Shown: positions 10,086 to 21,515 of the stretch, one piece after another
Numbering within the stretch: position 1 is the first letter of the stretch
How the letters are laid out: each line of letters opens with the position of its first letter
DNA from: a virus
DNA length: 64,000 nucleotides
IMG/VR virus record: IMGVR_UViG_3300027742_000001
Coordinates: 27,914 to 91,913 of that record
Strand: one strand, 5' to 3'
The notes under the pieces: generated by a model
Seen by the model: only the letters and a program-made list of their open reading frames with translations
Told to the model about the DNA's origin: nothing
Database searches by the model: none
Translations under genes and position numbers: made by a program

Positions 10086-10297
10086 AAAATAATGATAGTA
10101 GATACTTTGTAAGAAAAGTTATAGAAAGTAAATTCAAGAATAATTGTACTTATAATCTTGTTTTAGAAACATTTTTAAATACAAATTATTTAACAGTTAA
10201 TATTGAAAAAGGTGATGAAGTTATTAGAACGATAAATAGTTCAGAAGATAAAGATGATATGATAAAATTAGGAATAGTTTTATTTCAAAGTATTTAA
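10082..10297 (+). CDS. Hypothetical protein (71 aa)
   Basis: Starts within the stop of the preceding gene. Mixed charged protein without recognisable motif. Confidence 0.62.
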   Translation: MKNNDSRYFVRKVIESKFKNNCTYNLVLETFLNTNYLTVNIEKGDEVIRTINSSEDKDDMIKLGIVLFQSI

Positions 10298-10306
10298 GGA
10301 GGATTT

Positions 10307-10450
10307 ATGACTAAAGAAGATACTATAATATCACAACGGAAAGATTATTACCTAGATTATACAAAGTGGTGTAGAGAGAATAATATTTTTCCAATGAGTT
10401 TTTGTAATAGTTGGTTATTACATTTGTATAGAGTAATAAGTAAAAGATAA
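10307..10450 (+). CDS. Small hypothetical protein (47 aa)
   Basis: ATG 10307 behind AAGGAGGATTT; ends SWLLHLYRVISKR. Last + strand gene before the converging late block; 18 bp later comes the hairpin at 10469. Coding support is the ribosome site and position only. Confidence 0.55.
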   Translation: MTKEDTIISQRKDYYLDYTKWCRENNIFPMSFCNSWLLHLYRVISKR

Positions 10451-10468
10451 TTATTTAAACTAAACCAA

Positions 10469-10493
10469 AAGAGAGGTAGCTAAATCCTCTCTT
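10469..10493. terminator. Hairpin between converging transcription blocks
   Basis: AAGAGAGG-tagctaaat-CCTCTCTT, 8-bp perfect stem with 9-nt loop, between the last + gene (stop at 10450) and the stop of the endolysin (10501, - strand). On the - strand the stem is followed by TTTTGG, on the + strand by TTAAAATTG, so it likely works best for the late (-) transcript but may act both ways. Confidence 0.7.
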
Positions 10494-10500
10494 AAAATTG

Positions 10501-11136
10501 TTACCCTTGAAATTTAATTACATTATATAATTTAATAACTCTATTTAACCAACCTTTTTGGAACTTAATATTAGAAGGTTTATATTCCACAGTTTCTAAT
10601 ATATCATCAACCCTTTCAATAAGTAAAGCATAAGCAATCTCTTGTTCAGAAACCTTTGAAAGAACTTTGTCTAAGGCTTTATATGAGTTAGTACCAACAT
10701 AACCATCAACTTCAATATGTTCTTCTTTAGGTAAATTATTATTAATAATTTTTTGTAAGTTCTTACTTATTCTTTTGAAACCAAAAAGAACAGTTCCATC
10801 AGTTATTATTAAACCTAAATTAAAATCAAATCTTTCATAACCATATTTTTTATAATAGTTTGAGTAATAAAAGTCAGTAACTTTATCTTGAAATTCTACA
10901 TTATTAGAGGTTTCTTTATTTATTTCTGCTGTAGAGTATCCTTTATCTAATAAAGAATCTATGTATTCCCAACCTTCCCATTTTGGGTGGAACTTTCTAG
11001 CAATACCTTGTATAGTCATTCCTCCACTATCTTCAGCTATATTAGAATATCCACCTTCAAATTTATTTATAAAAGAGTGTATCTTTTTAAACTTATCTAA
11101 TTGATTTGTGTTTTCAGTATTTTTAGTGTTTTCCAT
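10501..11136 (-). CDS. Endolysin, GH108-type muramidase
   Basis: 211 residues. The N-terminus has FINKFEGGYSNIAEDSGG.TIQGIA (catalytic Glu27 of the EGGY motif, Asp36), diagnostic of glycosyl hydrolase family 108 lysozymes. The second half (DGYVGTNSYKAL) matches the peptidoglycan-binding domain usually paired with it. It cuts the peptidoglycan glycan strand at lysis. No signal peptide, so it needs the holin. It is the last gene of the late block, separated from the holin by spanins and a tail fibre gene. Confidence 0.85.
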   Translation of the reverse strand: MENTKNTENTNQLDKFKKIHSFINKFEGGYSNIAEDSGGMTIQGIARKFHPKWEGWEYIDSLLDKGYSTAEINKETSNNVEFQDKVTDFYYSNYYKKYGYERFDFNLGLIITDGTVLFGFKRISKNLQKIINNNLPKEEHIEVDGYVGTNSYKALDKVLSKVSEQEIAYALLIERVDDILETVEYKPSNIKFQKGWLNRVIKLYNVIKFQG

Positions 11137-11155
11137 TTATTTCCCTTATTCATTT

Positions 11156-12574
11156 CTATCTGTATTTGAAGTTTAGCCCCACTACTCTTATATATTGAGT
11201 ATCTGAATTAAAATCTACTGCTACATAACTTGTATTATCAATACCATTCATTAAATCTGTTATATCAAATTCATTTAAGTAACTATTATTTACAAAAAGT
11301 TGTTTATTAGAAACTGTGTTTTCAGTATCATTATATTGTAATCCTATTCCCGATATACTTACTTCAATATCTGCTTGAATATATTCTGTATTATCAGGTA
11401 ATACAACTATTGTACAAGAAACAATTTCATTAAAATCATTAGGTATTTTAATTATAAAATGAGTATCATTGTTAGAACCTAATCTTTCAACATTCCAATT
11501 ACCTACTTCATAAGCATTTCCATTTTTAGGATACATAAAGAATTCTTTTATATCATTTCTTAAACATATACTTTGTACCTCAAAAGCATTTCCATCAACA
11601 GCAATATAAGGAACATCTCCATCACCTAATAACTTAACAGTTCCACTTGAAACAAAGTCAATAGTATAATCTATTTGGAAAGGGTCTATCATAAATAACA
11701 TTGGGGAGTTTTCTATGTCAATAGTATTATCTCCAATAGTAAAGTCATAACCATTATCTCCATAAATACCATCTGAAATATTTCTCCAAGTAGCTTCATT
11801 TGGTAAATATTTTACAACAACATTTCCATTATTAACAGACTTTAATCTAACAGCTACATTATTAACTGCTTCAACAACTTTTAACTTAATTTTATTTATA
11901 ATAATGTTTGAAGTTGAAGGTAACTCAAAACAACAATCATCTTCCATTTCCGTACTATAATCAGGTTGTAGCATTGTATCAGATACTTTTGCTTCTGTAA
12001 CTAATGTAAAAGGTCTTTCTGAAGAGCCATTTTCTTTATCATAAAGGTGTAAAGGAATTAAATATCTATTACCACTTACATTAGAGTAAACACTTGGAAT
12101 ACTTCCTACCTCAGAAAGTTTAACAGAGTTTCCTACTTCGATACTTGCACTTTGTGACCTAAAGGTACTAGCACTCATAACAGTACCATCATCTAAAACT
12201 TCCATACCCGAATCTTCAAAAGACTCTCCTAAAGCAGACTTAACTGGAATATGATTATTTCTAACACCTATTAACTCAGTTGTACTTCCATCTTGACCTT
12301 TAACAGCTATTACAGAAGATAATTTAGCCCATTCACTTTCTACTCTTGCTTGACTTTCTACAATATTTTCTGTACTTTCAGTATAAACTAATTGAATACT
12401 TAATGAAGAATTATTATCATAACTTGCTAACCATGAAGCATTAGCTAAAGCATAATCATCTCTTTCTGTTTCAGCCTCTTCCTTTGTAGAGCCAACTCCA
12501 CCAAATGAGTTAGGAGATTGTCCTAGGTTAAAAGTATTTAGTTGTATATTTTCTCTTGTTTTATATAAAGGCAT
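11156..12574 (-). CDS. Probable tail fibre / receptor-binding virion protein
   Basis: 472 residues, beta-rich, Asn/Ser/Thr/Val-heavy, no signal peptide or membrane span. The N-terminal part (TRENIQLNTFNLGQSPNSFGG) could be a virion attachment segment with a helical stretch at about 30-85. It is next to a small beta-rich protein and the spanins, after the tail fibre genes. I call it a virion distal protein by composition and position; no family is recognised. Confidence 0.55.
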   Translation of the reverse strand: MPLYKTRENIQLNTFNLGQSPNSFGGVGSTKEEAETERDDYALANASWLASYDNNSSLSIQLVYTESTENIVESQARVESEWAKLSSVIAVKGQDGSTTELIGVRNNHIPVKSALGESFEDSGMEVLDDGTVMSASTFRSQSASIEVGNSVKLSEVGSIPSVYSNVSGNRYLIPLHLYDKENGSSERPFTLVTEAKVSDTMLQPDYSTEMEDDCCFELPSTSNIIINKIKLKVVEAVNNVAVRLKSVNNGNVVVKYLPNEATWRNISDGIYGDNGYDFTIGDNTIDIENSPMLFMIDPFQIDYTIDFVSSGTVKLLGDGDVPYIAVDGNAFEVQSICLRNDIKEFFMYPKNGNAYEVGNWNVERLGSNNDTHFIIKIPNDFNEIVSCTIVVLPDNTEYIQADIEVSISGIGLQYNDTENTVSNKQLFVNNSYLNEFDITDLMNGIDNTSYVAVDFNSDTQYIRVVGLNFKYR

Positions 12575-12575
12575 T

Positions 12576-12863
12576 TTAGTTTCCTTTCACAACTATTGTA
12601 TCTGTTCCTTCAGAATATAACCAAAGACTTTCCCCTGAGTTATTTTCATAAATTCTATCTTCATAGTCTTCATTATCTAAAGCTGTATCACTTAATATCC
12701 AAAATGGTTGATTTGAACTTGTATTAGGTATAGCAGTAGGAATATCTGTTCCTTCATAAGCCCAAATTCTAGTTCTACCTAGTGTTCTTACTTGATAATT
12801 TAAATCTGTTGTTGCTACTAATGTCCAAGTATCTTTTGGAATTTCTAAACTTGTATACGCCAT
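12576..12863 (-). CDS. Small beta-rich virion protein
   Basis: 95 residues, rich in Thr/Trp/Asn and beta-prone; ESLWLYSEGTDTIVVKGN at the C-terminus resembles small jelly-roll-like decoration or fibre domains of other phages. It is one base upstream of the next virion gene, so they are probably translated together. Confidence 0.6.
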   Translation of the reverse strand: MAYTSLEIPKDTWTLVATTDLNYQVRTLGRTRIWAYEGTDIPTAIPNTSSNQPFWILSDTALDNEDYEDRIYENNSGESLWLYSEGTDTIVVKGN

Positions 12864-12889
12864 AATTAATCCTTTACTATCTTACTATA

Positions 12890-13108
12890 CTATTTACCAC
12901 ATTCTTCTAATTGTAATGATAATTTATATTGTTTTATCATCCAATCATTTACCTCTGAATCTTTTAAATCAAGAATCTTATTTGTAACTTCACTTGAAGG
13001 AATGGGATAAGTAGGGCATATACTATTTATTTTCACCCCACACCCTACTAACATCATCAATACTGATATTAGACTCAGATATTTTATTATATTCTTTAAG
13101 CTTTTCAT
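12890..13108 (-). CDS. Outer-membrane spanin lipoprotein (Rz1-like)
   Basis: 72 residues with a lipoprotein signal peptide: basic start, hydrophobic core and lipobox LVGC at about residues 20-23. The start lies inside the preceding gene in another frame (86-bp overlap), behind AAGGGAAG. A lipoprotein overlapping an inner-membrane/coiled-coil protein in the lysis region is the hallmark of Rz/Rz1 spanins, which fuse inner and outer membranes at the last lysis step of Gram-negative hosts. Confidence 0.75.
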   Translation of the reverse strand: MKSLKNIIKYLSLISVLMMLVGCGVKINSICPTYPIPSSEVTNKILDLKDSEVNDWMIKQYKLSLQLEECGK

Positions 13109-13226
13109 TATCTTCCCTTAATTGTTCGTTTTCGGTATCTTGTTTAGCACTTCTCCAAACAAACAAAAAGGGTAAAACCTCTTTAAGTATATCAAACATT
13201 GTACTTATTAATTTTACCCAATCCAT
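13023..13226 (-). CDS. Inner-membrane spanin (Rz-like)
   Basis: 67 residues: a hydrophobic N-terminal segment (about 9-25, TMFDILKEVLPFLFVW) and a charged coiled coil (QDTENEQLREDNEKLKEY). The hydrophobic part is weaker than usual for Rz. The identification rests mainly on the overlapping lipoprotein gene and lysis context. Confidence 0.65.
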   Translation of the reverse strand: MDWVKLISTMFDILKEVLPFLFVWRSAKQDTENEQLREDNEKLKEYNKISESNISIDDVSRVWGENK

Positions 13227-13235
13227 ATTTTTCCT

Positions 13236-13427
13236 TTATATAGCTAATATATTCTCCAGCTCTTTTACTTTTTCTAAATCTTTTTCAGAAAATTTATAAT
13301 CATTTTCCTTACCTTTAGAGTATTCATTTAAAGCCCATTTAGCATATAACTTTTGGTCTTTGATACTAAAAAAATTTAAGTTCTTTCCATTAGCTAAATC
13401 ATATATTATAGCAGTTAATCTATCCAT
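13236..13427 (-). CDS. Small protein in the lysis cassette
   Basis: 63 residues, soluble and helical, Lys/Glu-rich (FSEKDLEKVKELENILAI). Lies between the secreted nuclease and the spanins with short spacing and its own AAGGAAAA site. Role unknown. Confidence 0.6.
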   Translation of the reverse strand: MDRLTAIIYDLANGKNLNFFSIKDQKLYAKWALNEYSKGKENDYKFSEKDLEKVKELENILAI

Positions 13428-13442
13428 AATTTTCCTTTATAT

Positions 13443-13901
13443 TTAATCACACCAAGTTTTAACTTTCTTACCACCGTAGTATTCTATTGCTAAGTTATTC
13501 TTTATTAACTCTTTTGTTAAAGAAACTTTTCCACAATAAGGTTCGGCAACTATTCTAAAATACTTACCTCTTTGGACTTTCTTTAAAATAATACTTTCTT
13601 TACATTGTTTTAAAAAGTTATATGTAAAGTGCATAGCTACTAAAGACATTTCTTTTTCATAAGAGCATTTAGCACCTCTCTTTTCGGGAGTATCTACACC
13701 AAACACTCTTATTGAAATATTATTACCAATTAAGTTAGGGAAAGAGTTTATATTAACTCTAAAAGTATCTCCGTCATATACAGATAAGATTTTATTTACT
13801 TTAATATCTTTATATATTTGTTTCCCTAAAGTGTTGCTTGGTAAGAATATCAATAGTAATATAATTAATATACTACTTAACAGCTTTCTCAGCACTTGCA
13901 C
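13443..13901 (-). CDS. Secreted thermonuclease-like (SNase) nuclease
   Basis: 152 residues. A signal peptide (residues 1-26, LLSSILIILLLIFLP) is followed by a staphylococcal-nuclease OB fold: YDGDTF (D43, D45), IRVFGVDTPE (R65, D70, E73) and a later R in GKYFR. The metal and catalytic residues D, R, D, T, E appear present. Five cysteines suggest disulfides. Substrate is expected to be DNA or RNA in the periplasm. The start is a GTG inside the holin gene in another frame; the exact start is uncertain. Phage versions with export signals are uncommon. Confidence 0.8.
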   Translation of the reverse strand: MQVLRKLLSSILIILLLIFLPSNTLGKQIYKDIKVNKILSVYDGDTFRVNINSFPNLIGNNISIRVFGVDTPEKRGAKCSYEKEMSLVAMHFTYNFLKQCKESIILKKVQRGKYFRIVAEPYCGKVSLTKELIKNNLAIEYYGGKKVKTWCD

Positions 13902-14205
13902 CTACATTCTCAATTTGACCAAGTTTACTTTGAATAAGAGTTTCGATTGAATCACCATATTTTTCAATAACTTTTGGGTCAATTTTATCAATGTATTCTT
14001 TTGCTGTTGCCATTTTTCCTGAGTACTCTATATTCTCAATTTTATTTTTAGCATAAGCCTCTGCAATTTCCTCTGCATAAGATATAGCATTAACAATTAA
14101 TTTCTCAATATCTTCATTTTCAATTTTATCTTTAGCTAATATAACTAAATATCCAAACCCTACACTAAATAGTATTCCAACTATTGTTAATAATAATACT
14201 TCCAT
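13873..14205 (-). CDS. Holin (LLH-type, single N-terminal membrane span)
   Basis: 110 residues: an N-terminal membrane segment (about 3-25, LLTIVGILFSVGFGYLVILA) followed by a charged helical domain with an Ala-rich part, the layout of LLH-family phage holins. It sits in the lysis cassette before the spanins. It overlaps the exported nuclease gene at its 3' end. Confidence 0.65.
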   Translation of the reverse strand: MEVLLLTIVGILFSVGFGYLVILAKDKIENEDIEKLIVNAISYAEEIAEAYAKNKIENIEYSGKMATAKEYIDKIDPKVIEKYGDSIETLIQSKLGQIENVGASAEKAVK

Positions 14206-14239
14206 TTTATTTCCTTTTATTTTATTTGTTTAATATTTT

Positions 14240-14965
14240 TTAATACTGTAACTTATTTTTGTCACTTTCCTCAAGAACCTTTTGAAAATCTCTTATGAAC
14301 TCGGTTTCATAATCACTTAATAAAACTTTTAAAGAATCCATTTTAATATTCTTTCTTAAATTAGAAAACAATATTGTACTTACATCTTCAATAAATTTAT
14401 CTTCTAAATAACTTTTCCTAAAATAATTACTTAGAACACCAATCTTTGAGCTAAACTTACTTAGTTTACTATTGAAGTAAAGTACTCTTCTTTGTACATC
14501 TGATTTAATCTTCTTTTTACAGTTAGTTATGTTTTTATCTTTAATACATTCTTGGGGATACCTTGCTGTTAAGAGTTTTTCATAATAAGATAATTCAACA
14601 GAATGGTGTACCTTTAACATATCTGTCATAATAATTACTGCTTGTTCATTATCTAAAGTAACTTTACCTACACTATCTCTTATAAGTTCTATTCTATTAT
14701 CAATGTACTCAAAACTTCTTTCATAATTCTCTTGTAAATTATTTAAAGACCACCAAAGCACAGCTACTATGACAGACATTTCAGCAGTTTTTCTAGCACC
14801 CCACCATATTTGAGACTGTTTTTTATCTTTTTCTTTTTTCTTTTCAACTTGCTCAATTATATTATTTAACATATCTTCTAATAATATATGGTGGTCTTCT
14901 TTTTTCTCTTGGGCTTTTGATAAGTTGAATTTTTCATATTCTGTTATGTTATCTATTTCAGTCAT
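14240..14965 (-). CDS. Single-span membrane protein with predicted periplasmic domain
   Basis: 241 residues. Residues 1-58 are highly charged (KKKEKDKKQ) and should stay in the cytoplasm. One membrane segment lies at about 60-76 (AEMSVIVAVLWWSL). Residues 77-241 are a helical domain with a cysteine pair (C140, C149) and would lie in the periplasm by the positive-inside rule. It is encoded between a response regulator and the holin. I do not recognise a kinase, HAMP or chemoreceptor motif. Possible roles are an antiholin-like lysis regulator or a signalling partner of the neighbouring receiver protein; both are inference. Confidence 0.7.
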   Translation of the reverse strand: MTEIDNITEYEKFNLSKAQEKKEDHHILLEDMLNNIIEQVEKKKEKDKKQSQIWWGARKTAEMSVIVAVLWWSLNNLQENYERSFEYIDNRIELIRDSVGKVTLDNEQAVIIMTDMLKVHHSVELSYYEKLLTARYPQECIKDKNITNCKKKIKSDVQRRVLYFNSKLSKFSSKIGVLSNYFRKSYLEDKFIEDVSTILFSNLRKNIKMDSLKVLLSDYETEFIRDFQKVLEESDKNKLQY

Positions 14966-14977
14966 ATTAAGCCTTAA

Positions 14978-15463
14978 TTATATTATTTTTAGTAAGATTT
15001 GTTGAATTGCCTCATATGCTTGTCTATGTATGACTGTTTCTTTTAAAGTTTTTGTTTCAATAAGTTCCCATTCTCTATTAGTAAATATTGTAATTAAGTC
15101 TTGAATAATGTTTCTTATTTCAAGGGGTTTAATATGAATTCTTCTTATACAAGGAAACTTTTCTAATTCATCTTTAAGTTGTTCATATGCACTACATACT
15201 ATAAAAGCTGTTTGCATTTGTAACTTAGATATTTCTTTTATAAGCTCTATTCCATTGACATTAGGCATTTTCATGTCTGTTACAACAACCTTTATAGGTT
15301 TATTACTATTAAGTCTTTCCTTAAAAATATCTAATGCAACTTTTCCATCCTCAGCAGTAACTACATTAAAACCTATTGTTCTAAGTTGCTCTGCTGTTTT
15401 CTCTCTTATTAATACTTCATCTTCAACTAAAAGGATTTCAGTACTTGTTGTTTCTATAATCAT
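14978..15463 (-). CDS. Phage-encoded response regulator (receiver domain only)
   Basis: 161 residues. Residues 8-125 form a canonical REC domain: acidic pocket VEDE (E14, D15), phosphoacceptor Asp63 in VVVTDMKMP, Ser91 in FIVCSAY and Lys112 in HIKPLE. The C-terminal 35 residues are helical with no DNA-binding output domain. A protein of this type is normally phosphorylated by a histidine kinase and signals by protein contact. It lies 12 bp upstream of the membrane protein gene and close to the holin, in the late transcript. No kinase is visible in the window, so a host kinase would be needed, or it acts as a phosphate sink. Such genes are rare in phages. Confidence 0.88.
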   Translation of the reverse strand: MIIETTSTEILLVEDEVLIREKTAEQLRTIGFNVVTAEDGKVALDIFKERLNSNKPIKVVVTDMKMPNVNGIELIKEISKLQMQTAFIVCSAYEQLKDELEKFPCIRRIHIKPLEIRNIIQDLITIFTNREWELIETKTLKETVIHRQAYEAIQQILLKII

Positions 15464-15487
15464 TAGGAATTCCTTATAAAGTAGCTC

Positions 15488-15700
15488 TTACTCAGAAGGT
15501 TCAACATAATCTAATCCTTTAACATCAATATCCCAATATATTAAGTCAAACTCTCCTGCTGGATTAGGTGTATCAGAAATACAAGTACAAGCACTCCCAT
15601 TAAATAAAACCACTTCAGGGGTATAGTATCTTTTACCTGAATCACATCTACCTTTTATTGTACAATCTTTTCTTGCTCTAACATGATTTGCATAAGACAT
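15488..15700 (-). CDS. Small Cys-rich protein of the tail fibre region
   Basis: 70 residues with four cysteines (CTIKGRC...CTC). It sits between the fibre-assembly-like protein and the response regulator with a TAA-ATG spacing of a few bases. Possibly a small virion or chaperone-like protein. Unknown. Confidence 0.6.
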   Translation of the reverse strand: MSYANHVRARKDCTIKGRCDSGKRYYTPEVVLFNGSACTCISDTPNPAGEFDLIYWDIDVKGLDYVEPSE

Positions 15701-15703
15701 TTA

Positions 15704-16252
15704 TTACTCCTCTAGTCCAAATATTTCTTCAAATTTTTCTTGCTTAAGTGTTTCTGCATATGTCAATATCTCTTGGAGTTTAATTTTTGTTAACTGAATC
15801 CAATTATCCCCCTCTTTCCAAGGAATATATTCATTTGTTTCATTCCAACCATTCATTTTTTGATTAAGTTTTAGAAGATTTTCTGTTGTAACTTCTATGT
15901 TTACTGTATCACTAAATGGATAGTCTTCTATATCTTCGTTACAATATTTATCATAAGTTATATACTTGTCAGATTTTCCTTTCTGAGTTTTTATAATTTT
16001 TTCTCTTTTTGTCTCATTAAAAATAATAGAATTTGTTTCATCATCCCATTCCCAAGATTCTCTATATTCTGTTGGTATTTCAGTATGTTCTACTATGTGA
16101 TATTTTACATACTCAGGCTGTTTATAAGTCAAAGCTAAATCATCTAATGTTTCAAAGTAATCATTCCAATTACTATTTGGAGTTGAGATTGAAACTGACT
16201 TATTTATTTCTCCATTAATTACTTCTTCGTTTACATATACTATTACTTGCAT
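15704..16252 (-). CDS. Probable tail fibre assembly-like protein
   Basis: 182 residues, acidic, Trp/Tyr-rich, immediately downstream of the tail fibre gene. Position and composition (ESWEWDDETN, W and E-rich helical end) resemble tail fibre assembly chaperones, which lie directly after fibre genes. No diagnostic motif is visible. Confidence 0.5.
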   Translation of the reverse strand: MQVIVYVNEEVINGEINKSVSISTPNSNWNDYFETLDDLALTYKQPEYVKYHIVEHTEIPTEYRESWEWDDETNSIIFNETKREKIIKTQKGKSDKYITYDKYCNEDIEDYPFSDTVNIEVTTENLLKLNQKMNGWNETNEYIPWKEGDNWIQLTKIKLQEILTYAETLKQEKFEEIFGLEE

Positions 16253-16261
16253 TTTATCTCC

Positions 16262-17092
16262 TTAACACACAAACATTACGTTTATATTATTAGCATCACC
16301 AGCTCCTGATGATTGACCTGTTACAATTCTACATTGTGTAGTTGTTTTTAAAGATGGAGCATTCCCTAGTCCTGTACTTTTTAGCCCAAACGATGAAGGA
16401 GAATCATCTTCATTACAACCCGATACAGCATAATCAGCAGTAGGTAAAGCTGTTGCCATATTTATTGTATAATCTCCTGTTCCATTATCTGTAATACTTG
16501 CTACGTTTCCATTATTTCTGATAGCAACTACACCTATACCATTAAAGTTTACCCATGCTCTAATTGCATATATTGGTGCTGTTCCACTTGCATTTAAGGC
16601 TGTTTTTGCTCTTTCATCATTTGTAGTCCATGTAGTCTCTTCGGGTTTATCTTCATATTCTAGTTTACCACTAGATGTCTTATATACTAATATCCTATCA
16701 TTTGCAATATTAGTATCATCTATCTCTTTATCTTTTACTCCCCCTAAAATAATAGAATAGTTTGGTACTGTTGCTATAATATTAGAACCACTTGTTATAC
16801 TTGAAGTTGAAAATTGAATACTAGCCCCATTTAAAGAATCATCTATTATCTTGAAGTTTGTGTCTATAAATTCTGAAGATGAGGATTCTGCTAATTCATC
16901 AATAGCACTTTTTATATTATTACTTGACAACCCACTTGTTGTATTATCATATTCAATATTACTTGCAACTGTGGTACTATCAGTACCTAAACTATCTTCA
17001 ATATATTGTCTAAAATCCTCAATATATGTTTTAAATTGACCTTGGGTTACATCATCTCTCCCAAGGTTATCTGCTTCTATTAATGTACTCAT
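16262..17092 (-). CDS. Tail fibre protein with conserved tip domain
   Basis: 276 residues. Helical N-terminus (RDDVTQGQFKTYIEDFRQYI) suited to trimer attachment; the C-terminal 110 residues read APIYAIRAWVNFNGIGVVAI...GNVASITDNGTGDYTINM, the well-known tip domain found at the end of many siphophage and myophage fibres. It should bind the host surface. Located directly after the J-like tail tip gene. Confidence 0.8.
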   Translation of the reverse strand: MSTLIEADNLGRDDVTQGQFKTYIEDFRQYIEDSLGTDSTTVASNIEYDNTTSGLSSNNIKSAIDELAESSSSEFIDTNFKIIDDSLNGASIQFSTSSITSGSNIIATVPNYSIILGGVKDKEIDDTNIANDRILVYKTSSGKLEYEDKPEETTWTTNDERAKTALNASGTAPIYAIRAWVNFNGIGVVAIRNNGNVASITDNGTGDYTINMATALPTADYAVSGCNEDDSPSSFGLKSTGLGNAPSLKTTTQCRIVTGQSSGAGDANNINVMFVC

Positions 17093-17132
17093 ATATTTCC
17101 TTTCATTAATACTTTTTAATTACTTAATTAAA

Positions 17133-20100
17133 CTAATTATTAATATACCCTTTTAATCGTATATCTACTAAACCTTCTACTTCACTACCTAAATCATCAA
17201 AACATTTTAAAGTAGCACTTGTATTGGTTTTACTTATTACTTCTACTCGTGTAGCTGTACTTCCTATAAAACTTTGTAGAGTTGCTACTACATTTTTTAA
17301 ATTAGTTATATACTTAGTGTTTATGGTAGTACCTCCTATTAAGATATTTATATCCTCTAAACTTTCATCAATATCTTCTACATCTACAATAATTTTTAAT
17401 GCAGTTATACTTGGTCTAACTGTTCCCTCAATATAACTAACTCTAACTTCATATTGTCTAGTATATTGAACAGGGAAACCTCCTGTATATAAATTCCAAC
17501 CACTTTCTTCATACATCATATCTGAATCTGAACCATAAAAATTAAATACATCATTAGTATACATTGATAAAGGATAATACTCTCGATACTCTATTTTTTG
17601 ACTTGCTGTACCTGAATACTCTATTAAAGCTGTTCCACTTCCATCAGGTATAAAAGAACCAATATAATACATAGGCTCAAATAATCCTTGATAAAAGTTC
17701 TCTCCATTATTTTTATCATAAAAAATATCTGAATCTAAATTATAATAAAAATATGCTGTTGAAGCTTCTGCTAATAAATCATTATTTGGTTGAACAACCC
17801 CTCCATAGATTTCTCCAATAAAACCTTCAGCATGATAATCTTTTTCATAAATAAGATTATCAATAAGAGTTTCTCCTTGGTTAAACTTAATATATTTTAC
17901 ATTTAAACTTTCATTTCCATATACATCAACAGCTTTTATAAGTAAGTTATACTGACCTTGAACTTTTGTAATATCGGCTTTATAAGGTGAGGTTTTAAGT
18001 ATTCCTTCATGTATTTTAGTAGCAGTATTCCAATTTAAAGAATCCCCTACTTGATATTTAATAATATAACCACTTAAGTCAGGTGGCTTATTAATAATAT
18101 CAAATACTAAAGTTTTAACCTCATTAGGTCTTCCACTAATTGTAAATATATCTACATCAGGAGGTAAAATATCATTGCCACTAACTGTATAACTTTGTTC
18201 AATAAAGTTACTTGGATTACCTATTTCTTGAATAAATATTCTATACCTATTTTCAATAAGTCCTGTATTTTCTGATATATAAGAACTCCCTTTTACATTT
18301 TTTCCTAAGTAAATTCTATTATCAGGAATATTAGGTAAAGGAGTTTCATCTTCACTAACAAAATCAGGGATAGCATAGATATTATAGGTACTTGTAGTAA
18401 TTGCTGTCCAAGTAAATGTTAAAGTAATATTTGGGATACCAGCACTTGAAATATTCACATCTTCTGATATATTAAAAGTAAGCAACTCATTTGCAACTTC
18501 TAAAGAAGGAGTTATTGAGGTAATTAAATCATTATTATAATTAAAGTCTAAAATACTTGGGTTATAATCTGTTCCAGTAAACTTTGTACTTAATTCTTTT
18601 CCAGTTCTTTTTACTTCAGTTAATCTTACTAAAAGAGCTTCATTATTATTCTCTCCAAAGATATAACTATTATAAACTTCTATATCAGAAGTATTAGGTA
18701 AAGGTATTGTATAAGTATCTGTTAAATCAGTATCCTCAATATAATAATCTGTAAAAGTATTATCTTGACTTTGTATCTTTAAAACATATACCTTATCAGA
18801 AGTTAAAGTAACAGGTTCTTCTAAAGTAACTTCTGAAGTATCTACTTCTTGAATTCTACCACCATTACCCCATAAAGGAACATCATTTTGAATAGCAACT
18901 ATATCACCTACTTCACAAGTAACTCCTTTAATATCACTTTCCCAAGTGACTGTTCTTCTTTGGTACTTTGTAGTAGCTAACATATATCTACCAAATACAA
19001 TAGCTTCTGCTTTAGTAGTAATACCAACAGCATCTACTGTTGAGGTTTTAGGTGTAACTTTAGTATCATTTAAATCTTTATCAAGAATGGTTACAGCATT
19101 AAGTTCATTTCTAATATCTTCATCAGGATATTGTATTTCTAACTCAGTTGCTAAATCTGATAAAGGAGTATAGCTTATTTGGAAACTTTCTTTTTTAATA
19201 TCTCCAACATTAAACATATTTGTAATAGTTTGTATTCCATCAAAAACACATGTATACTTATTACCCCTAAGTAGTATTTGACCTCTACCTAACTTACCTA
19301 CCTTTTGACAAGCATCCCAAGGATTTGTTAGAGTATCAAAAGTTCCATTAAAGTTTAATTGTAAAGGATGTCCTAACTCTGTTAAGGTAATAAAATCTAT
19401 ACTAGCAAAATCTAATAAGAAATATATGTTAGTAATATTTGTGTCATTAAAATCTGAATTATAATCTTCAAAGGTGAATAAATAAAACTCTCCACCAACA
19501 TCTACACTATCAGTAATATCAATCAACCCATTATAAGAATATAATTCTCCATCATCCTTAGTTAGAGTAATTTGTGATAAACCTCTATTATATGTAGATA
19601 CTTCAATAGAAGTAATTTCTTGAATTATCTCAGATTTATAAACTTTTAATATATTCTCACTAGAATTATAAGTAAGTCTATCTGTACTAAAGGTCTCATC
19701 AGAACTGATAATAGTTTCTTCTCTTATATGTTCTAAATCACAGAAACTAGCCCATTCAACAAATCTATCATAATCAATTTGAGAAGGTTTTATTTTAGCC
19801 CCATAGAAAGGATTAGTTAAAATATCATAACATACCCATGCTGGGTTATTATTTCTCGCTGTTATACTTTCAGTATAAATATCATTAGTATATAATGTCA
19901 AATCTTTTCTAGTTACTTTTGTAGTAATAGTTGGTATAGAACCCTCAATATGCTCAGTTGCTTTTAATTTTAAACCTAACTGTGCGATACCTCCATAATT
20001 AATATCTGTTGTATTTATCTCCTCAATAAAGGAAACTTGCATAGTGGATTTAATATATATTGAACTAGGTATAGAACTCAATCTAGTGACTTTTACTTCA

Positions 20101-21515
20101 TATTGCCCTAATTGTAAGGTTTCGTTTGAAAATATAGAACTTACATTAGGCTCTATACTAAAACTTATTGCTGAAGTTGAATTTCCTGAGTAGCTTAAAA
20201 CTTCAGAATCCCCTATAAATATAGTTCTATAACTAATTCTATTTTCACTTTGTAACTCACCTTCAGTATATATAGGTTGATACTCACAGGTATCGTCTGT
20301 ACCACACATATTTGGAGTAGGGTTACTTATAGGAAAGGTGGAAGAATTATACTCTTTCCAATCTGTCCAATAAGAAATATATCTTGAGTTCCAATATGTA
20401 TCTGTTGCATCCCTCTCATATATAGGATAACTAACAAAAACACTATATTGTTTTTGATATTTAGGTTCTTTAATATAAGTCCACTCAGTTTCTCCAACTA
20501 ATCTATATCCTATACTATAATTTACTGAGTAAGTATTATAATTACCATTTGTAGTACTATAACTATAGAGACCATTTGGAAAAGAAAAATGTAATTTAAA
20601 GCTATCAATATTATCTGATTCAGTAGTAAATATATAAGGTTCATTATAATCTAAATTTCTGATAATATTCCCATTATTAAAAGTTGTATCATCAAATCCA
20701 TTCATAACTTCTTGTTCAAAAGTACCCCTAACTTGTTTAAAATATCCATCGCTTGTATCACTAATAAAACTATTATAAGGTTGCCCATTTACATAAATAT
20801 CAGCAGAATTTATTTCCTCAATTTCTCCGTAACATAAAGCTATTTGTAAAGATAACCAATCATCACTATTCTCATAATATTGTGATTTATTAATTTCTGT
20901 CCCACCTAGAACATGAGTACCATATAATACTGGTGTAGGTGAATTTACATCTCTATTAGTAGATATTCCGTCCCAAGAATATGTTTTAGAATCTGTCATA
21001 TTATTAGACATATTTGCATCAGCATTTGGGTCACTTGGTGCTAACATTCTACTTATTAGCATCATACCACCAACAACAACTGCAAAAGCTACTACATAAG
21101 CTAAAGCTATGGCAATAGCTGAGGTTGCGGCGAAATAAGATATAATAGCACTAGCAATATACCCTACTGCCTCCCACTCTTGGTAAGGAAAATAAACTAT
21201 AATATCTTTTTCTTGAACAATAATACTTTCTTGTTCTTCTTTTTCTTTAATAAGTTTACCATTATAAATAATACAATAATTAGTTTCATCATATTCACTT
21301 GTCTGAACATATTCTATTAAAGGTTTCCCATGTAAAGCTGTTCTTTTTTTATTTATACTTAGTTTAAATGGATTAGGAATTTCTGTTATAAAAACTGTAC
21401 CAAAAGAAACTTTGTTAATATTTAAGTTTTTAATACTTTCTTTATAAGTATCTCTTATTTCAACAAAAGCTATTGAAGAAGGTACTACTTGTTTAGCTTC
21501 TTTGTCTTTACTCAT
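17133..21515 (-). CDS. Tail tip / host specificity protein J-like
   Basis: 1460 residues, the size and position of lambda gpJ (after K- and L-like genes). A hydrophobic segment at about 120-158 (YIASAIISYFAATSAIAIALAYVVAFAVV) and then SWDGISTNRDVNSPTPVLYGTHVLGG match the J N-terminal region. Further on come fibronectin-III-like beta repeats, and the C-terminal part (after 1200) is a coil and beta tip. It forms the central tail fibre/baseplate hub and contacts the receptor. Confidence 0.85.
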   Translation of the reverse strand: MSKDKEAKQVVPSSIAFVEIRDTYKESIKNLNINKVSFGTVFITEIPNPFKLSINKKRTALHGKPLIEYVQTSEYDETNYCIIYNGKLIKEKEEQESIIVQEKDIIVYFPYQEWEAVGYIASAIISYFAATSAIAIALAYVVAFAVVVGGMMLISRMLAPSDPNADANMSNNMTDSKTYSWDGISTNRDVNSPTPVLYGTHVLGGTEINKSQYYENSDDWLSLQIALCYGEIEEINSADIYVNGQPYNSFISDTSDGYFKQVRGTFEQEVMNGFDDTTFNNGNIIRNLDYNEPYIFTTESDNIDSFKLHFSFPNGLYSYSTTNGNYNTYSVNYSIGYRLVGETEWTYIKEPKYQKQYSVFVSYPIYERDATDTYWNSRYISYWTDWKEYNSSTFPISNPTPNMCGTDDTCEYQPIYTEGELQSENRISYRTIFIGDSEVLSYSGNSTSAISFSIEPNVSSIFSNETLQLGQYEVKVTRLSSIPSSIYIKSTMQVSFIEEINTTDINYGGIAQLGLKLKATEHIEGSIPTITTKVTRKDLTLYTNDIYTESITARNNNPAWVCYDILTNPFYGAKIKPSQIDYDRFVEWASFCDLEHIREETIISSDETFSTDRLTYNSSENILKVYKSEIIQEITSIEVSTYNRGLSQITLTKDDGELYSYNGLIDITDSVDVGGEFYLFTFEDYNSDFNDTNITNIYFLLDFASIDFITLTELGHPLQLNFNGTFDTLTNPWDACQKVGKLGRGQILLRGNKYTCVFDGIQTITNMFNVGDIKKESFQISYTPLSDLATELEIQYPDEDIRNELNAVTILDKDLNDTKVTPKTSTVDAVGITTKAEAIVFGRYMLATTKYQRRTVTWESDIKGVTCEVGDIVAIQNDVPLWGNGGRIQEVDTSEVTLEEPVTLTSDKVYVLKIQSQDNTFTDYYIEDTDLTDTYTIPLPNTSDIEVYNSYIFGENNNEALLVRLTEVKRTGKELSTKFTGTDYNPSILDFNYNNDLITSITPSLEVANELLTFNISEDVNISSAGIPNITLTFTWTAITTSTYNIYAIPDFVSEDETPLPNIPDNRIYLGKNVKGSSYISENTGLIENRYRIFIQEIGNPSNFIEQSYTVSGNDILPPDVDIFTISGRPNEVKTLVFDIINKPPDLSGYIIKYQVGDSLNWNTATKIHEGILKTSPYKADITKVQGQYNLLIKAVDVYGNESLNVKYIKFNQGETLIDNLIYEKDYHAEGFIGEIYGGVVQPNNDLLAEASTAYFYYNLDSDIFYDKNNGENFYQGLFEPMYYIGSFIPDGSGTALIEYSGTASQKIEYREYYPLSMYTNDVFNFYGSDSDMMYEESGWNLYTGGFPVQYTRQYEVRVSYIEGTVRPSITALKIIVDVEDIDESLEDINILIGGTTINTKYITNLKNVVATLQSFIGSTATRVEVISKTNTSATLKCFDDLGSEVEGLVDIRLKGYINN

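Follow-up and report, generated by a model that had tools for sequence, protein, structure and literature searches.

The window analysed here, 64,000 nucleotides of viral DNA, corresponds to bases 27914-91913 of a 91,913-base IMG/VR virus record and has a G+C content of 27%. The genome is siphophage-like, with genes for terminase, portal, a lambda J-type central fibre, ribonucleotide reductase, Thy1 and PhoH. On the minus strand, the J protein gene is followed by genes for a fibre-like protein, a 182-aa protein, a 70-aa protein and a 161-aa receiver; then come a 241-aa protein, a 110-aa holin-like protein, a nuclease and a 63-aa protein, and the series ends with two overlapping genes for probable spanins, two more protein genes and the gene for a GH108 endolysin (Table 1). 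Counted from the receiver, the holin-like gene, which carries no homology support, is two genes away; downstream, the probable spanins come at a distance of five to six genes, with the endolysin further on. The nuclease-like gene (13443-13901), within the lysis region, encodes a hydrophobic N-terminus, likely a signal peptide, and overlaps the holin-like gene by 29 bases. The interval from the spanin-like pair to the endolysin (11156-12863) encodes two structural-looking proteins of 472 and 95 aa, neither with a significant family match.

Table 1. Minus-strand features around the receiver gene, in window coordinates
Feature	Position	Strand	Evidence and remarks
Lambda J-like central tail fibre	17133..21515	-	phrog_31 E 2.7e-90; query used for finding related phages
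Tail-fibre-like protein, just upstream of receiver slot	16262..17092	-	N-terminus related to L001 protein
Stand-alone receiver, 161 aa	14978..15463	-	PF00072 E 4.6e-17; active-site residues; PDB sequence matches; Foldseek
241-aa protein, probably all-helical	14240..14965	-	Marginal hydrophobic stretch near residues 55-78; Cys140, Cys149; no homologue found
110-aa holin-like protein	13873..14205	-	Strong N-terminal span and charged, probably helical tail; position and shape only
Staphylococcal-nuclease-like protein	13443..13901	-	PF00565 E 1.8e-6, phrog_452 E 1.5e-15
Probable inner-membrane spanin, 67 aa	13023..13226	-	Position and out-of-frame overlap with lipoprotein gene; no family match
Probable outer-membrane spanin, LVGC-lipobox lipoprotein	12890..13108	-	Overlaps inner-membrane spanin gene; weak phrog_456 Rz-like spanin E 0.21
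Endolysin, glycosyl hydrolase 108 and peptidoglycan-binding domain	10501..11136	-	PF05838 E 4.3e-13, PF09374, phrog_315 E 9.2e-25

The 161-aa protein has the receiver fold of response regulators with an intact active site; its phosphorylation is predicted. It matches the Pfam Response_reg profile over residues 10-100 with 62.6 bits, passing the curated cut-off of 30.2, and retains E14, D15, D63, S91, K112 and P113, of which K112 aligns with the corresponding lysine of PDB entry 3eq2. The best phmmer matches in the PDB are receivers, including CheY, RssB and Spo0F, and a single-sequence structure model of modest confidence (pLDDT 52.6), which served for fold confirmation only, retrieved receivers in Foldseek at probability 1.00. 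Beyond about residue 125, the last 35 residues gave no match to an output domain or any other family. These results bear out two claims of a sequence-only reading of this DNA, namely a complete receiver domain with all key residues and the lack of an output domain. The divergent cREC domain of jumbo phages (PMC7824862) differs in being linked to enzymes: no NAD/ADP-ribose or cyclic-nucleotide enzyme was found among the scanned genes at 10501-16252, and the window protein matches the conventional receiver profile instead. It is the sole receiver in the phage record, and a search of the 91.9-kb record for HATPase_c kinases found none encoded, therefore any kinase acting on it must be that of the host. 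An IMG/VR search returned no close relatives of the receiver, and genome contigs gave four weak matches only, three in Colwellia and one in Syntrophomonadaceae. A host search with the J alignment in genome contigs yielded no matches.

The receiver gene had also been assigned to a late transcript. Its neighbours on the minus strand form a long series of structural genes, and a search for terminator-like sites on that strand gave none from 10200 to 18000; this fits membership in one late transcript without proving it.

The two genes that follow had been described as a membrane protein, with one span and a periplasmic domain carrying two cysteines, and a holin. The cysteines of the 241-aa protein are indeed present, at positions 140 and 149, but its best 19-residue Kyte-Doolittle value is 0.85 and its approximate insertion energy about +3, versus about -1 for the 110-aa protein. 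Because this hydrophobic stretch is short and marginal, both the membrane span and the periplasmic domain are guesses. Searches of Pfam, PHROGs, NCBIfam, annotated phages and IMG/VR found no relatives of the 241-aa protein, and its structure model, all helix with a mean pLDDT of 42.7, was too unreliable for a fold search. The 110-aa protein does possess a strong N-terminal span near residues 4-23 (Kyte-Doolittle 2.46); against Pfam, PHROG and NCBIfam it gave neither a holin match nor any other at a meaningful score, so the holin label rests on shape and place.

Relatives of the phage were retrieved with the J protein as query (L001 at 65%, L002 and L003 at 59%, L004 at 32%). L002 and L003 cover the region through to the endolysin, and neither the receiver nor the 241-aa protein is present in them; at this place they carry a reverse transcriptase and a 301-aa membrane protein, a relative of which begins at the same slot in L001 before that contig ends. 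Across 38 related records, one receiver was found, at the edge of a distant contig. Since L002 and L003 lack the receiver and hold other genes in its place, we regard it as a variable-slot gene and not as a core gene. Conservation of the pair beside holins in related phages, which the sequence-only reading had proposed as a check, was thus not seen in the nearest relatives that cover the region.

Stand-alone receivers do recur in the lysis modules of several unrelated Alteromonas phages. V22 and A5 were found through the literature, and the remaining receiver phages by searches for receiver-like proteins in which lysis genes played no part. In V22, the end of the receiver gene gp30 overlaps a gene for an Rz-like spanin (phrog_4297 E 7e-6), which is followed by a two-span protein gene; in A5, the receiver gp11 is followed in the same order by spanin-like, two-span and annotated endolysin genes. 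Their IMG/VR relatives L083 and L084 repeat these architectures, with overlapping inner and outer spanin genes. In R9Y1-3, and likewise in L094-L097, a single-span protein is followed by the receiver and a GH108 endolysin, and in the T7-like phages R8W and H4/4 a class II holin (phrog_1356 E 7e-14) precedes a single-span protein and then the receiver. PB15 has the order XhlA-like protein (phrog_937 E 1.8e-16), receiver, M15 endolysin and holin (phrog_3427 E 2.6e-40); XX1924 resembles it, but with a DUF5675 protein at the endolysin position. An IMG/VR search found no relatives of the PB15 and XX1924 receivers. These published genomes contradict the earlier reading, which knew of no holin-linked receiver in phages, and because stand-alone receivers recur in lysis modules, a link to lysis is more plausible than that reading could know.

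In each of the Alteromonas phage lysis modules, a short single-span protein is encoded immediately upstream of the receiver, often in an overlapping gene, so that receivers recur beside single-span partners in the lysis modules of unrelated phages. Relatives of the R8W partner, gp47, occur in only six of 50,697 phage records, all with an adjoining receiver, and span two unrelated phage types, including the R9Y siphophages; in the same records, relatives of the V22 partner, gp29, are confined to V22 and A5. The gene in R8W and H4 (L085:4001-4462, L086:4001-4462) is annotated as a DNA-binding response regulator, PhoB in R8W, yet its receiver-only product of 153 aa is too short to accommodate a PhoB-type DNA-binding domain. 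The reported burst size of the R9Y phages, which carry the module, is only 15-19 (PMC9430817), an observation and not evidence of cause.

Alteromonas phage V19 encodes a receiver-like protein (L087:3998-4450) that has apparently lost the phospho-aspartate and the lysine; the overlapping gene for the single-span partner is kept, and the receiver-like gene adjoins one for an unassigned protein with spans. As V19 keeps the pair without an apparent phospho-aspartate, phosphorylation is not always needed, and V19 hints that contact with the membrane partner could be important in its absence.

The window receiver is an analogue, not a member, of this Alteromonas set. It has in common with the set the receiver-only form, an intact phospho-site, a GH108 endolysin and a location with fibre genes on one side and lysis genes on the other. 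We do not file it with the set because an upstream single-span partner is absent and its own candidates are unrelated to the partners in those phages: the 70-aa protein encoded upstream has no hydrophobic span (by eye), and the candidates, which lie downstream of the receiver and not upstream as in the Alteromonas phages, gave hhalign probabilities below 1%. Like the window protein, V22 gp30 and A5 gp11 are stand-alone receivers of about 150 aa, encoded after the fibre and before the lysis genes, with an intact phospho-site and no adjacent kinase gene. They share 21-22% identity with it, gp30 overlaps a spanin gene as the window receiver does not, and their partner, a small single-span coiled-coil protein directly upstream, is unrelated to the 241-aa protein. 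The R9Y1-3 and R8W/H4 receivers (24-32% identity) are likewise probably late genes and lie in lysis modules, in R9Y also with a GH108 endolysin, but have an overlapping upstream single-span partner. PB15 and XX1924 (23-24% identity) share the receiver-only form; theirs are embedded in the lysis genes and have an XhlA-like partner. Among the stand-alone phage receivers compared, the closest to that of the window, at 34%, is in MW202601, where it adjoins a DNA polymerase gene outside any lysis cassette.

The receivers compared fall into families less than 35% alike, and all lysis-linked receivers aligned together were too diverse for scanning. Under a random-position model, five of seven genomes would have the receiver near lysis genes with a probability of about 1e-4 to 2e-3; for three of the five receiver families the value is about 0.7 to 3%. 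Both figures are rough, with slot counts assumed. V22/A5 and R9Y/R8W share modules by transfer, and a host bias is possible because Alteromonas is the host in every lysis-linked precedent for which the host is known. Together with the receiver of MW202601, which lies elsewhere, these are serious caveats. Several records were set aside. Bacterial chemotaxis, lysyl-tRNA synthetase or flagellar genes surround the receiver matches in MT835480 and 'Pseudomonas phage' Y1, which were dropped as probable pieces of chromosome; the INPHARED entries OQ572403 and MT835480 are labelled as phages, yet resemble pieces of bacterial chromosome carrying such genes. In the PACL record, the genes annotated near the receiver are all of chromosomal type, Y11 is an unannotated, unverified record, the Bhz63 regulator is longer (239 aa) and away from lysis genes, and the Komp_PAO1_1 match falls within a 261-aa protein and is not a stand-alone receiver. 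Likely contamination was the reason for leaving out many records labelled as phages of Listeria, Staphylococcus, Acinetobacter, Enterococcus and Salmonella, as a group and not case by case.

Our favoured reading, held tentatively and at somewhat less than an even chance, is lysis tuning: a host kinase would phosphorylate the receiver, which would then act on a lysis-module membrane protein. We infer that this single-domain response regulator would be made late in infection, from a variable slot between tail-fibre and lysis genes. Its most likely phosphate donor would be a host histidine kinase, the phage having none. Its phosphorylation state may alter its binding to a lysis-module membrane protein, either the 241-aa or the 110-aa holin-like protein, and the altered binding would advance or delay the holin/endolysin step. 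The intact active site, the absence of a kinase from the record and the recurring lysis-module receivers with single-span partners speak for this reading. Against it weigh the marginal span of the 241-aa protein, partner candidates that lie downstream and are unrelated to those in Alteromonas phages, module transfer and possible host bias, the pair kept in V19, the different surroundings in MW202601 and the frequent use of the slot behind tail fibres by accessory genes. A broader proposal, which we consider conceivable but doubtful, is that unrelated lineages have placed a phosphorylatable receiver and a membrane partner in the lysis module to put the timing of lysis under the control of a host two-component kinase; the window phage would then be a further case with a different partner and probably an AT-rich host.

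The main rival to lysis tuning is a decoy or auxiliary gene that drains phosphate from a host kinase, or mimics its output, in chemotaxis, envelope stress or phosphate signalling, with the proximity to lysis genes being incidental. We judge it rather unlikely, though a serious contender. CheY and Spo0F are receiver-only proteins that work in phosphorelays, and CheY and RssB are among the PDB sequence matches of the window receiver. In addition, the authors who described R8W treat its receiver as an auxiliary host-signalling gene (PMC8228385), and those of V22 and A5 class theirs as CheY-like auxiliary genes (PMC7289586, PMC10579305). A late position is odd for host takeover, however, and a decoy leaves unexplained both the repeated embedding among lysis genes and the unique membrane partners. 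No phage receiver controlling lysis was found in the openly available literature.

The slot behind the tail fibres is a common site for accessory genes. The receiver might act elsewhere, e.g., in superinfection exclusion or late transcription, without having been selected for a part in lysis; this we regard as improbable. The replacement of the receiver/241-aa pair in the nearest relatives, by the reverse transcriptase and the 301-aa membrane protein in L002/L003 and by the start of a relative of the latter in L001, speaks for it, but the receivers of PB15, R8W and A5-like phages lie inside the lysis cassette and not only behind fibres. Very unlikely, in our assessment, is a receiver-fold protein that serves in the virion or in tail-fibre assembly. 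The window receiver is encoded two genes after the tail-fibre-like gene, and those of V22 and A5 come after fibre and chaperone genes; against an assembly role, the full catalytic set is retained, and V22/A5 already have a separate known fibre chaperone (PMC10579305).

Among cellular proteins, CheY, Spo0F and CpdR resemble the window protein in having the receiver fold and catalytic residues without an output domain; they differ in being cellular genes with known kinases and targets. Lysis timing is usually seen as a clock set by the holin, and the known environmental input to it is lysis inhibition by superinfection. If lysis tuning is true, a receiver in the lysis module would connect host two-component signalling directly with the time of lysis. 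In phage N4, gp62/gp63, a lysis regulator and a pinholin, timing in the lysis module is apparently regulated through the holin; the holin segment named 'Receiver domain' by the authors is not a response-regulator receiver (PMC12642591). The recurrence of lysis-module receivers in the cultured phages R9Y1, R8W, V22, A5 and PB15 makes the idea testable by ordinary phage genetics and biochemistry.

The relatives with the alternative slot content carry a diversity-generating retroelement (L003:14665-17427, L002:9110-11869), with a reverse transcriptase matching PF00078 (E 2.7e-15). Its template lies after the fibre gene, and of 23 substitutions between template and fibre-gene end, 22 fall at adenines of the template. 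From the J start to the fibre gene, L002 and L003 share 4664 identical bases, and differences between the two fibre genes are confined to the final 100 bases.
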